This document shows positions 9,069 through 48,400 of a stretch of DNA of 64,000 bases, piece after piece (the stretch's first letter is position 1; every line of letters begins with the position of its first letter). The stretch covers positions 1-64,000 of the forward strand of contig SOIM01000037.1 of assembly GCA_004377185.1 (NCBI GenBank), written 5' to 3'. Source of the DNA: Methanomassiliicoccales archaeon. Its GTDB lineage: Archaea; Thermoplasmatota; Thermoplasmata; RBG-16-68-12; SOIM01. The position numbers were made by a program, and so were the translations under genes. The notes beneath the pieces were generated by a model, which was given only the letters and a program-made list of their open reading frames with translations, ran no database searches and had not been told where the DNA came from.

Positions 9069-9076
9069 TTTATATT
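9069..9076 (+). promoter_or_regulatory. TATA box of the initiator tRNA gene
   Basis: TTTATATT lies about 33-40 bp before the mature tRNA 5' end, placing transcription start near 9098 and giving a pre-tRNA leader of about 10 nt for RNase P. Confidence 0.6.
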
Positions 9077-9108: not shown

Positions 9109-9219
9109 AGCGGGGTGGGGTAGCTAGGAAACCTTGGTCGGTGAGTTCCAACCGATGAGGCTTCAAATCCCATCGGGCTCATAACCCGAAGATCCCTGGT
9201 TCAAATCCAGGCCCCGCTA
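9109..9219 (+). tRNA. initiator tRNA-Met (CAT) with a 37-nt insertion
   Basis: The acceptor stem AGCGGGG/CCCCGCT, T arm CCTGG-TTCAAAT-CCAGG, anticodon arm TCGGG-CTCATAA-CCCGA (anticodon 9180-9182) and discriminator A9219 are clear. The A1-U72 pair and three consecutive G-C pairs at the base of the anticodon loop are initiator features. The 111-nt gene is 37 nt too long: the extra bases lie between the D arm and the anticodon stem. Removing 9134-9170 gives a 74-nt cloverleaf with a perfect GGGT/ACCC D stem and A26. CCA is not encoded. It stands alone upstream of ftsZ. Confidence 0.93.
9134..9170 (+). other. putative non-canonical tRNA intron (37 nt)
   Basis: Insertion between the D arm and anticodon stem of tRNA-iMet. 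Boundaries can slide within a few bases (9132-9168 to 9134-9170) with the same mature product. It contains a 5-bp hairpin TCGGT/ACCGA. I could not find a strict bulge-helix-bulge at these joints, so splicing by the archaeal endonuclease is inferred from the restored cloverleaf, not from the splice motif. Confidence 0.65.
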
Positions 9220-18009: not shown

Positions 18010-18082
18010 TCTCTCGTACGAGCAAGATAGTTTTTTATGCCGAACCTTGATTGTGTTCTCTCTCATCCCTGACAAGCAAAAT

Positions 18083-42414: not shown

Positions 42415-45400
42415 CGTCCTCTCCTCTCTCTCCTGCCTCTGAGCACCCTGTACGCTATCATCAGCAACAGGACCAACCCAAGGGCCACAATCACATACAA
42501 GTACGCATCCACTTCCTCCGTCAGGGACATGTCCCTTCCTGAAACGACTATATTGGGCACTTCCAGACTGAAAGTCGGCAGAAAGGCCGGTACACCCAGT
42601 ATGTCATCCACAGTTCTGTCATCGTTCTCGTAGCACAGTATAATCGCCCGACTCGATGGTGCTGTTCCCACGATGGTGAACCTGAGCGTCATCTTCAGAG
42701 TGGAGTTTCCATCCACCTCGACCGCCTCGAGGGTGTCCGAATACGTCTTGCGCACGGGATCCTGCATGTCAGCCATCCATCCATCTGACGACAGCTCATC
42801 GCCGTTGACTATGCTTAGGTAGAATTCCTCCTTGCTGTTCCCTAGGTTCTTCAGTTCAATCTCATACACGATATGAGTGCCATCGTATGTGGCTGGCAAG
42901 GTGGTCAGCACTAGATCCATTCCCCTGATCTTCTCTATGTCCACTTGAAGAACAACACTGTCTGTGGTCGCACTGCTATTCTCTGAGCGGACCACTGCAT
43001 GGAGGGGGCCATGGTCGACGGAAGCGTTTGCTGGAGTGTTTATCCTCACCTGCACTGAGGCGGTGTCTCCTACCGTCCCGTAGTCCAAGACGACCTTCGA
43101 TGGTGTGAAAGTATATTCCCAGTCATCGGACGGACCCGTCCCTTCCAGTGTGAAGGCATCTTCGACGTTTCCCTCATTCGTGACCGTTATTGTGTATACC
43201 ACGGATTGGCCCTGAGCGATCTCCTCCTTCTGGCCTGAATCCCATTCAACGGATACCAGCCTCTTCAATGTCTTTGTGAGCTGAAGATTCACCGCGGACA
43301 CGTCCTCAATCAGAACAGTCTTCGAGGCTTCGTACATGACCCCCGCACCCTTCTCCTCAACGGACGTGCTAGCCTCCACAAGGTACCCACCTGGTGGGAG
43401 ATAGAGCTCGTAGCGCCCCAACTCGTCCGTCTTCAACTCCACCGATCCGTTGGCGGTGAATTTCACGTCCGAGACCTGTCTCTCGTTGTCTCTGAAGGTG
43501 ACAACTCCCGAGACTCGGTGCCCCGCCAGCAGTGGTATGTCGTATTCATTCTCGCTGTAGGGTGCAATTGTGGTCTCACCCAGGAAGGTGTAATGTCCCA
43601 ACATCCTGTGGACGTAGATTGTATAATCGCCTGGCATGACCTCCACCGAGTAGTTACCTGTGGAATCTGAATAGACCGTCACGTTCTGCGCGGACAGGCT
43701 TCTCGCTATGAACTGGACCTGGACAGATGTTCCCACTCCACCTATGGAGACCCATCCAGAGATTGTGGAGTTCTCGAACGTCTTCTCGATCTGAATGTCG
43801 AAGACAACCGTAGATTCTCCTTGGTCTATGTGAAGGTTTGAATCGTGCGTGTATCTCACATATCTTGTGGTGCCTGCTTCCGATTCGGTCGTGCTGTGGT
43901 CCACATGCACCACATAATCTCCCCAAAGCAGATGTCCCTCGTATCTACCTGAGGATTCCGTCCTGAAGGTGACGGAACCGCCAACAGTCCTTTGGAATGT
44001 TATGTCCAGAGACTCCCGGACTATGGAGCCCTTGTATCTCAGAAGGCCTGTTACCCTTGTTGATTCTTCGAACTGCAAGTCGAGAATGGTGCCGCCCGCC
44101 ACCTGGAAACCCTCAATGAACGAATACTCATCCCCATCGAATTCCTCGGTCGAGGAAGCGGTATATTCACCTAGAGCCAGGAAGACCTCGAATTCACCGT
44201 CAGAGACGTTCAAGGTCAATACATCGGGTCCCACGATATCCACCAGTGCGCTTGCGGCTTCGCCCTCCAATTCGACCGTTCCTTGGACAAGCCCTCTCTT
44301 CACCACATCCAAATCATGGGCCAGGTCGTCCTGATCAATTATCAGTTGAATCTCATCTACCGTTCTGTTCTGGTATCTCAGGTCCCCCGAGAGCGATATG
44401 TTCTGATCGATCACTACGCGATAGCCTCCCGGCCTCAGGTTAACTGAGTAGGCGCCATTGGAGCTCCTCGTCCTGGTGCTGATGGACCCGTTGCTAATTG
44501 ACCGGAACTCAATATCCACATTATCTTCAATCAGGGGCATTTCATCCAATATGAGTGTTCCTGAAACTGTGATGTTTTTTGGTGTGACAGAGAAGTTGAG
44601 TTCTTCCCTCAAATCTTCAATCGGGGATAAGGGCCTGCTTACATCCTCGAAACCTCTGGCACTCACCAAGAGAGAATATTCACCGTCTGGTAGAAGTTGT
44701 GCCTGGTACGCTCCCTCAAAACCCGTCAGGAAGACGAGTGTCCTCCCTTCCTCATCTGTGTAGCTGAGAACAACATCCGCTAGACCCTCCTCCACATCTC
44801 TTTCGCCAGAATCGTCCATGTCATAATAGACAAAGCCAGCCATCTTCTCTGCCTCTTCGAGTGTTATTTCATGTTCCATGTTAACGTTCAAAACCACAAG
44901 AGATGCGTACACCTCGCCCTCACTGAACGCGCTAATCTTGTAGCTTCCGATGGGTAGCACAGCACTATACTCGCCGTACTTGTTCGTCTCAGCGTTGAAG
45001 GTCCCACTCTCACCCTCGAAGTACACTCTGACTCTTGCGAGAGGCTGTCCCCTGCTCAACGCAGTCCCACTCAACACCGCTGAGGGCGTCATGAGGATGT
45101 CCAAGGGCGTGTCTTTGCCTTGTTTCACATATCTGGACCCGACATATGCAGACCTTTGTCCATCCGAATCGTAGACCGAGTAGACGTTGTAGATCCCTTC
45201 TTTGAGCGATACCGAGAACCTACCTGAACCATCAGAATAGACCAATCTATCTTTCGGGTCCAGCGACTGCGATTTGAACTCGATGAGGGTGTAGGGGGCA
45301 ATCTTGGCACCAACCACTGTTCGGCCTGAGACAGTTCCAGTGGGGACCAGTGTGATGTTTAGAGTTTCGTTCTTGCCCATGGAAAGTACCACTCTCATGG

Positions 45401-48400
45401 GGAGGCTCGATTCGTCCCCTGTCTTGATTTCCAACGTCATTTCGCCAGAAAGCAGATTCTCAAGAGCGAAGCTCCCATTTGAATCGGAATTGGATGTGAT
45501 CGTGGTGTCATTTGTGCTGTCATACAACTGAACGCTCGCGTTCTGTGCTGACTCGCCCTTGTGGGTGCGGACGGTGCCTGTTATGGATGTTGCCGTGACG
45601 TTGATATCTCTCTCAAGGACCTCATCCCTTTCCACCGTCTGTGCCTCCAGTCCTATCAGTCTCTCTTCAGTTTCAAGAGTCACTTCGTAATCACCCGGAA
45701 AAGCACCTTCCAGATTGTAGCTGCCGTTCTCATCCGTGGTGACCTGCCAGATCTCGTCCACATCTGTGTGGTTGAATGTCAATTGCGCATTCGGGAAGAC
45801 AATCTCATCTTCGTCATATACGGTGTTGTAGTTCCTGTCAAGATACACAGTGCCCGTCAGGGAACCGCCCGAGACGTCTATGTCCTTCGTTATGATGTAA
45901 TCCAAGATTCCATCCCTGTCCGCGTCGATGTTCCTTCTCATTGCCTGGTCCTCGGTCACGTTGAATTTCACAATATCAAGTTCGGTTGCGCCAAGATTGG
46001 TGAGGTCCTGCAACTTTCCTACTGAGACCTGAAGTTCGATTTCTCCCCATGGAGCCAGAGCGCTGTATCTTCCCTCGGAATCCGTTCTTGTGAGATAATG
46101 GACCGTCTGTAGTTCGTCCCTTATCGTGATCCAAGCGCCCGAAAGTGGTGAAACACCATCCACAAGCACAGTGCCGTTGACGTAGGCCCCATCATAGTAT
46201 TTCAGTATCACGACTCCGTTGTACAAAGTCGACCTGGCGCTGGCGTCCACCACGCCTTCCATCTCCCCCGCGTTTATCTTCTGTTGTATGTCAATCGCGT
46301 CCTCAAAGTTGATGGCTGTCCAAGCTTCCGTATGATTTGCCAGCTCGTTCTGCGGATATGGGTTGAAATAGGCTGTCCTGTAGGCAACTCTGAAGTGGGT
46401 CATGTTCCAGCTCTGTATAGGTTGGTACTGCTCATATTCGCCGCTCAGGCCCGGAATCCACACGTTATCCTTCCCCAGGTCCTCTCCGCTGTAGCCCACG
46501 AACGCCTCGTATAGCATGCTTTTCCAGAACATGTCCTGATACTCGATCCTCACGTTACTGGTCGTTGCACCTATTGGAACCTCGTGTGGGGCGAACTCAC
46601 CCATGTTGGTCTCGGCAACGAGCTTGAAGAAGTCTATGGGCTGGTTCTGGACCATTCGATGGTCCGACAGCTTGGCAGGGGCATAGAAGATCCCGGTCTG
46701 TTGTCCCGAGAAGGGGAACAGTCGCGAATCGATCGCAAAATAAAGGATGCTCTTGCCTGTGACCTGCCTTATGTCGTGGTAGAAGTCCGCCATCTTGTTT
46801 ACGTCCAGATGGCTGATGAAGTGAACCCGCAGGGCGATGTACATGGCATTCTGAATATCCATCTGGCTGTCGCGGGGGCTGTATTTGTCTGGATCTGCAA
46901 GTATGGCCGGGATGTAGTTCCCCGGGTTCTTGAGTATGTCCTCAACCTTCTCGTACTCCATTCCATATCTGGTGATGATGTCTCTCACACCATCGCTCAG
47001 CCTTTTGCTTCCTCCGTTCGTGATGTAATCGCCTTCAATCAGCCTCGATATCAGAAGCGCTATGGCATCGTTCTCACCTTGCGCCATGATGAAGTTTCCA
47101 GCCAGCTGGTATCCGTTCAGGAAGTTGTCGGCAACGGTCGGATGCTTGCCCGCATTCACCGCCTCGAAACCGTAGTCCCACCAACTGAGGAAGGCTGGTC
47201 TGTCGGCCACGGGCAGTGTGTCCGCATCCTGTTCAGCAAGCCAATCCCAAGCGGCAGGCCAGTACCGTGTCTTCAGAGGTAGCGAGTATCCGAACGCCCC
47301 AAGGAAGAAGTTCCTTCCTTCCACGAGCCCAGCAGGTTCCAAAAAGTCTGGGAGCATGTCCGCGATGGCTTGGTCGTACTTCCTCTTCTCTTCGAAAGGC
47401 ATTCCCGCATCAACACCGTACCAGATGTTGGGAAGCAGGATCAGCCCAGTGATGAAGAGAGCCCCAACCACATGCCTCAGTTTTATGCTCTTCCTTATTG
47501 CATAGAGTTTGTTGCCCCTCCGTTCATCATACGACTTCTTAATACTCCGGAAGTCGAGCTTGTCAACTATGATTATGAGTGCCCATCCAGCCGTCATGGC
47601 GATGGCCGGAGCCGCATTGAACATGAACCTAGCGGCGGACAGGGCCATGAATATCGAGGCGCCGCTCCAAATGACCAGGAACAGATAGAAAGGCTCCAGT
47701 CTCTTCGGGATTTGAATGAAGAAATACGCTAAGGCGGCTAATGATAAATAGAAAGAGACGGCTCCGAACGCGAGAGCCATCTGGCTGAAGTTCGGGGCCT
47801 GCGCTTCCGCGATTGTTTCATATGTTTTGGTTCTCACGAAATAGCCAGCACCGCTTATGAAGCTCTGGGCGACCGCGGGATTGATGATGGCCAGTATTGC
47901 GAAGGATATCCCAAACGTCACGAACACAGCCGGGATCACCAATGCCCACGGAAGGTCCCTCGTGAAGGTGAAGATTGCGCCCAGGGCCACTGCAGCAAGA
48001 AACAGTATCATTGGCGCGTCAAACCAGGTCCGCACAAACCCGTAAGAATGGTACCACGGGAAGGAAACAAGAAGAGCAACGCCCACCGTTATTGTGAAGC
48101 AGATCAGGATGCCCATCGGGTCTTTGTTCCTGAGCCTGCCTACCAGAAGCTGGAAGCCGAAGTACACCAGGATGATGATAATTATGTAGGCAAAACCCTT
48201 CCAGGCCAGGGCTATCGCTGCAATGGAGAACGCTGACATCATCGAATAGAGAACTGATTTCTTGTTGTTGGCGAAGAAGTCCCTTAAACCGCCCTTGATG
48301 CTGCCCCATTTCTTCCAGCGGGTGACCCATTTCTTGTCCTCCAGCAGTTGGAGAGCTCTCAGAAAGAAGAAGAAGGCCGTGACTGCGAAGAACAGGGCGT

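Follow-up and report, generated by a model that had tools for sequence, protein, structure and literature searches.

A putative D-loop intron in the initiator tRNA gene of a Thermoplasmata archaeon and its predicted removal by a single-gene, two-repeat endonuclease

The initiator tRNA gene and its surroundings

The window considered in this article is a stretch of 64,000 nucleotides of contig SOIM01000037.1 (GenBank assembly GCA_004377185.1), assigned to a Methanomassiliicoccales archaeon of the Thermoplasmata. At positions 9109-9219 (+) lies an initiator tRNA gene of 111 nt that is interrupted by an insertion 5' of the anticodon stem, and the identification of this gene in a preliminary description of the DNA is borne out by A1-U72, the GGG/CCC anticodon stem, the CAT anticodon and A73. 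The neighboring genes are archaeal and encode RNase HII, an SCP2-domain protein, FtsZ, proteasome alpha, Rrp4, an RNase PH-type exosome subunit and a TruB/Cbf5-type protein. The TATA-like sequence found upstream of the tRNA occurs 5 times in the window against 0.61 expected, and AACGATATNTTTATAT is kept upstream of the initiator tRNA in three genomes of the same family but a different genus (G002, G003, G004). The features of the locus are listed below, where the arrow marks the predicted cut in each bulge of the bulge-helix-bulge (BHB) motif.

9069..9076 (+): TATA-like box, TTTATATT, about 33-40 nt upstream of the tRNA
9109..9130 (+): 5' exon of tRNA-iMet, positions 1-20a; 100% identity in three family relatives
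9125..9128 (+): predicted BHB central helix, 5' strand TAGG; homologous register in 80 distinct initiators with a D-loop intron
9129..9131 (+): predicted 5' bulge AA↓A, 5' splice site after 9130; placed by the BHB cut rule, AAA/AAA bulges in 69/80
9131..9166 (+): putative intron of 36 nt; mismatches to family relatives only at 9137-9158, product as in uninterrupted relatives
9132..9160 (+): predicted intron hairpin; 9132-9136/9156-9160 adjoins the central helix, followed by 9138-9142/9151-9155
9161..9164 (+): predicted BHB central helix, 3' strand CTTC; A-U, G-U and G-C pairs plus a U-C mismatch
9165..9167 (+): predicted 3' bulge AA↓A, 3' splice site before 9167; placed by the BHB register
9167..9219 (+): 3' exon of tRNA-iMet, positions 21-73, CCA not encoded; 100% identity in three family relatives

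In its unspliced form the gene was missed by ARAGORN, whose sole tRNA in the window is a tRNA-Ser at 18082, and the Rfam tRNA model gave only a spurious match to it (9151-9219, 29.6 bits); once the insertion is taken out, ARAGORN calls a perfect tRNA-Met(CAT). Because the first program missed the gene and the second misplaced its match, the single initiator gene would seem absent from the annotation. A second, uninterrupted initiator tRNA, which the preliminary description had raised as one observation that would speak against its reading, was looked for in the assembly (93.65% complete) and none was found, so that 9109-9219 is the only initiator tRNA gene in it. A second copy of GGCTCATAACCC in the genome (C59) proved not to be a tRNA.

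Intron boundaries and the BHB motif at the junctions

Removal of 36 nt leaves GGAAATCCCATC, a 75-nt tRNA that folds into a cloverleaf of the same form as that of uninterrupted relatives, with a D arm like that of uninterrupted initiators from the order and class of this archaeon, which have GGAAATCCC or a close form (read in e.g. G006, G005, G010, G016 and G075). The same product results from four junction placements, from 9129-9164 to 9132-9167, among which the BHB register singles out 9131-9166, with cuts after 9130 and before 9167; the predicted spliced junction 9130/9167 is AGCTAGGAAATCCCATCGGG, with GGAA joined to ATCCC. Comparison with the relatives thus puts the intron in the D-loop, at 20a/21 in tRNA numbering. 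The preliminary description had proposed an insertion of 37 nt (9134-9170) at the Thermoproteales-like position 25/26, which leaves a 74-nt tRNA with GGAAACCCATC where the relatives have GGAAATCCC. That product is accepted by ARAGORN, and a perfect, fully paired GGGT/ACCC D stem can be drawn for it, but the three placements that yield it offer no BHB register (central helix of 0-2 pairs), GGAAACCC at such length occurs in no listed uninterrupted relative, and the relatives agree with the 36-nt excision instead; the longer insertion and its site are consequently regarded as improbable.

In a BHB motif a helix strand of 4 nt precedes a bulge of 3 nt on either side, and the cut falls after the second bulge base. 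When this register was applied to the 80 distinct initiators with a D-loop intron, 97% of the helix cells were standard pairs and all four pairs were present in 72/80, while registers slid by 1-4 nt were at most 52% paired; the sequences are mostly from one family (f15), so that these counts are not independent and stand for a few separate lineages instead of 80. The helix also covaries, the first exon base being T or C and its intron partner A or G accordingly: TAGG/CCTA is found in families f6 and f21, and CAGG/CCTG in f15, f17, f20 and Hermodarchaeota. The window's family is the exception. Its AAA/AAA bulges are present, and its TAGG/CTTC helix has 3/4 pairs, one of them G-U, the outer pair being lost. 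On the intron side the hairpin contributes 5 consecutive pairs starting at the end of the central helix.

An outer helix adjoining the central helix, as in a strict BHB, was not found at this locus, the stretch of 5' strand that separates the D stem from the central helix being unpaired. Known relaxed BHB forms do not require a directly adjoining outer helix, and since the D stem does not lie directly against the central helix the motif is best described as a relaxed BHB. The preliminary description had seen no obvious strict BHB at the joints, an apparent lack that was partly an artefact of the misplaced boundary. The correct register has AA↓A bulges on both sides and a central helix of 3/4 pairs, and all 4 pairs are present in homologues from other families. 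In a cloverleaf-constrained fold a GAA/UUC pairing is 2 kcal/mol better than the BHB register and would bury the 5' site. An alternative 4/4 helix (AGCT/GGCT, cut after 9127) was set aside, as its product would lose one of G18/G19.

Conservation and distribution of introns in initiator and other tRNA genes

The three family relatives from a different genus share the 111-nt layout, and the window differs from them by 0 exon mismatches and by 11-12 mismatches that are all intronic, at 9137-9158. Identical exons, a diverging intron and a preserved TATA-like box are what one would expect to see in a working tRNA gene whose intron can be removed, and this conservation rules out an assembly error. 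The family genomes with an initiator all carry the gene with the D-loop intron (4/4) and an uninterrupted D arm occurs in none of them (0/4); in G001, from the window's genus and 76% complete, no initiator tRNA was detected at all, and this genome was left out of the comparison. It might be argued that this copy has fallen silent or is in decay and that translation relies on another initiator tRNA outside the assembly, given that the latter is 93.65% complete and that some isoacceptors were not found in it. Against this, exon conservation among four genomes is 100% beside a diverging intron, the TATA-like box is conserved, and in the four family genomes where an initiator was found it is the intron-bearing gene and never an uninterrupted one, all of which makes a silent copy very improbable.

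Among 400 sampled genomes of the class, the initiator has a D-loop intron in 73, representing 10/105 genera and families f1, f6, f15, f17, f20 and f21, and an uninterrupted D arm in 218. Within the order to which the window belongs, it was found in f1 and f6 and not in f2, f3, f4 and f5. A scan of GTDB species genomes returned 85 stretches, mostly labelled Thermoplasmata and a few Asgard. Judged by its conservation in three other family genomes and in 73/400 genomes of the class, the insertion is not a chance feature. Presence and absence alternate even within a single genus (g20), where the intron occurs in G047 and G067 and not in G075 and G115, and once its intron is cut out the G047 gene is identical to that of G075 at all 75 nt. 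Such precise presence and absence bears on whether the insertion could be kept as an expanded D arm of a functional tRNA. The insert can indeed fold into a hairpin stacked near the D stem, but the BHB motif is conserved between families, the genome encodes a splicing endonuclease and RtcB, and introns elsewhere in the initiator gene of relatives obey the same rule; retention of the insert is thus hardly credible.

The initiator tRNA is an intron hotspot among the relatives of this archaeon. Its introns are located in the T-loop in G005, G010 and G016, at 37/38 in G006, G039 and G049, and at two positions in G009, G013 and G067; the same range of sites, D-loop, 37/38 and T-loop, sometimes two in a gene, is seen in the relatives' initiators L036, L038, L046-L048, L059, L060, L182-L185, L203 and L205. 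In Asgard archaea, initiators of Hermodarchaeota (L090, L109) and Lokiarchaeota (L095) have an intron at the same D-loop position, apparently with a second intron at 37/38 in the former two and with a 3/4 central helix, as in the window, in the latter. Three contigs filed under bacteria (L071, L130 and L139; Acidobacteriaceae, Proteobacteria and unclassified bacterium) contain archaeal-type initiator tRNAs and are probably misbinned archaeal contigs.

At the Rfam gathering score, introns at 37/38 were found in five other tRNAs of the genome (Val, Asn, a CAT tRNA, Phe and Tyr). A weaker search, below the Rfam tRNA gathering cut-off, revealed T-loop introns at 59/60 in a tRNA-His(GTG) (30 nt; G000:C37 ~44800-44925, L206) and in a CAT tRNA, either elongator Met or Ile2 (38 nt; G000:C29 ~47150-47262, L207). 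Their central helices have 4/4 pairs (TTCA/TGAA and TTCG/CGAA, respectively), and the T-loops are normal once the introns are removed. With the initiator, three tRNAs of this genome would need cutting outside the anticodon loop, and non-canonical splicing looks systematic because of these two further tRNAs with T-loop BHB introns. Two other tRNA loci were observed in the genome. One is a likely tRNA-Trp (G000:C30 ~100420-100597, L209) whose long intron contains a C/D-box RNA similar to Rfam sR3 (25.7 bits, under the cut-off). The other is a tRNA-Thr 3' half (G000:C36:132877-132939, L208), which lies roughly 1 kb away from a complete tRNA-Thr (133953-134025) and is possibly the trace of an integrated element.

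The splicing enzyme and the proposed route

Domains of the tRNA_int_endo family (PF01974) occur in one gene of the genome only, L176:714-1919 (-), which encodes a protein of 401 aa built of two repeats, with two N and two C domains. The catalytic Tyr, His and Lys, assigned like the residues of the acidic loop from known structures of the family, are kept in the C-terminal repeat only, and the acidic loop is retained in the N repeat, as in alpha'2 enzymes. A single gene with an inactive N repeat, a catalytic C repeat and no separate beta subunit corresponds to the alpha'2 type, and from this architecture the enzyme would act as a homodimer. The epsilon2 form (ARMAN, ASL; alphaN-alpha-betaC with the catalytic unit central) does not fit, the catalytic repeat being C-terminal. 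The Crenarchaea-specific loop (CSL) of (alpha-beta)2 enzymes, a Lys-bearing loop of 15-18 residues in the catalytic unit, is absent, since in the alignment with 3p1z a gap follows YGKMI at the Aeropyrum CSL site; no CSL-like insert was seen in the aligned endonucleases of the class and, by eye, no insertion specific to intron-bearing genomes. K262, at the root of the turn where the CSL emerges in other archaea, is a conserved basic residue, most of the aligned endonucleases of the class having Lys or Arg there. In the window's genus the inter-repeat linker (residues ~218-233) is very Lys-rich (KPKGKRGKKRKKPK), unlike in most other families of the class. The RtcB ligase is encoded in the same genome (607 bits).

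The most probable reading, at about 0.9, is that the insertion is a 36-nt archaeal BHB intron at D-loop position 20a/21 that is removed by the alpha'2-like endonuclease, with joining by RtcB. In the precursor the 5' exon TAGG would pair with CTTC near the 3' end of the intron, leaving two three-base bulges, AA↓A each; the single-gene, two-repeat enzyme would cut after 9130 and after 9166, these being the predicted phosphates, and RtcB would ligate the exons to the 75-nt initiator tRNA. The preliminary description had left the choice between an endonuclease of relaxed specificity and another mechanism; the former, acting on a BHB, seems the best reading, and the latter is not needed. Against a BHB intron stand the central helix of 3/4 pairs, the competing GAA/UUC fold and the reviews that call alpha'2 enzymes narrow. 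According to these, alpha4 and alpha'2 enzymes are of narrow specificity, and relaxed or non-canonical introns are efficiently removed only by (alpha-beta)2 and epsilon2 enzymes (PMC6379350, PMC4090602, PMC4033280), while a structural paper of 2025 puts breadth of specificity down to Lys loops (PMC12397907). On the other side, the homodimeric endonuclease of Ferroplasma acidarmanus, another member of this class, cleaves a minimal BHB without a tRNA body at 30 degrees (PMC8707768), which supports experimentally the position independence of a Thermoplasmata enzyme; it measures 288 aa against 401 aa here, and the substrate used was a mini-BHB rather than a D-loop or 3-bp motif. We tentatively consider that alpha'2-like enzymes of Thermoplasmata without CSL may be broadly specific, accepting D-loop introns, T-loop introns and, in the window's family, a BHB reduced to three central pairs, and that K262 might replace the loop Lys.

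The predicted intron resembles the non-canonical BHB introns of Thermoproteales, Thaumarchaeota, ARMAN and the Asgard lineages Atabeyarchaeia and Freyarchaeia in its BHB-type junctions, short length, location away from 37/38 and occasional occurrence of several per gene. It differs in belonging to Thermoplasmata with a single alpha'2-like gene and no CSL, in recurring in the initiator and in the 3/4 central helix of the window's family. Canonical euryarchaeal 37/38 introns, also present in the genome (Val, Asn, Phe, Tyr, one CAT), are presumably processed by the same enzyme; here, in contrast, the site is the D-loop and the 3' bulge lies opposite unpaired 5'-exon nucleotides instead of being a strict bulge. 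Split or permuted initiators (Nanoarchaeum equitans, 37/38; Thermofilum pendens, 59/60; PMC3218864) share a disrupted initiator and the splicing endonuclease, whereas the present gene is one collinear unit with a cis intron.

Judged by sequence comparison, the mechanism would be the ordinary archaeal one in an unexpected setting. What appears unusual is the initiator D-loop position in Thermoplasmata, the weakened motif and a sole enzyme of a type described as canonical-only, since reviews tie non-canonical tRNA introns to Lys-loop (alpha-beta)2 or epsilon2 enzymes and limit euryarchaeal alpha2 enzymes to canonical sites. No report of an initiator D-loop intron in Thermoplasmata was found in the literature searched, from which e.g. 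Sugahara 2008 and Marck and Grosjean 2003 were absent. In a class whose endonucleases are single-gene, two-repeat enzymes, the initiator is thus interrupted at three sites, D-loop, 37/38 and T-loop, with gain or loss even inside one genus; whether intron diversity depends on enzyme type, as has been supposed, could therefore be put to a direct test with a single enzyme and a handful of precursors.
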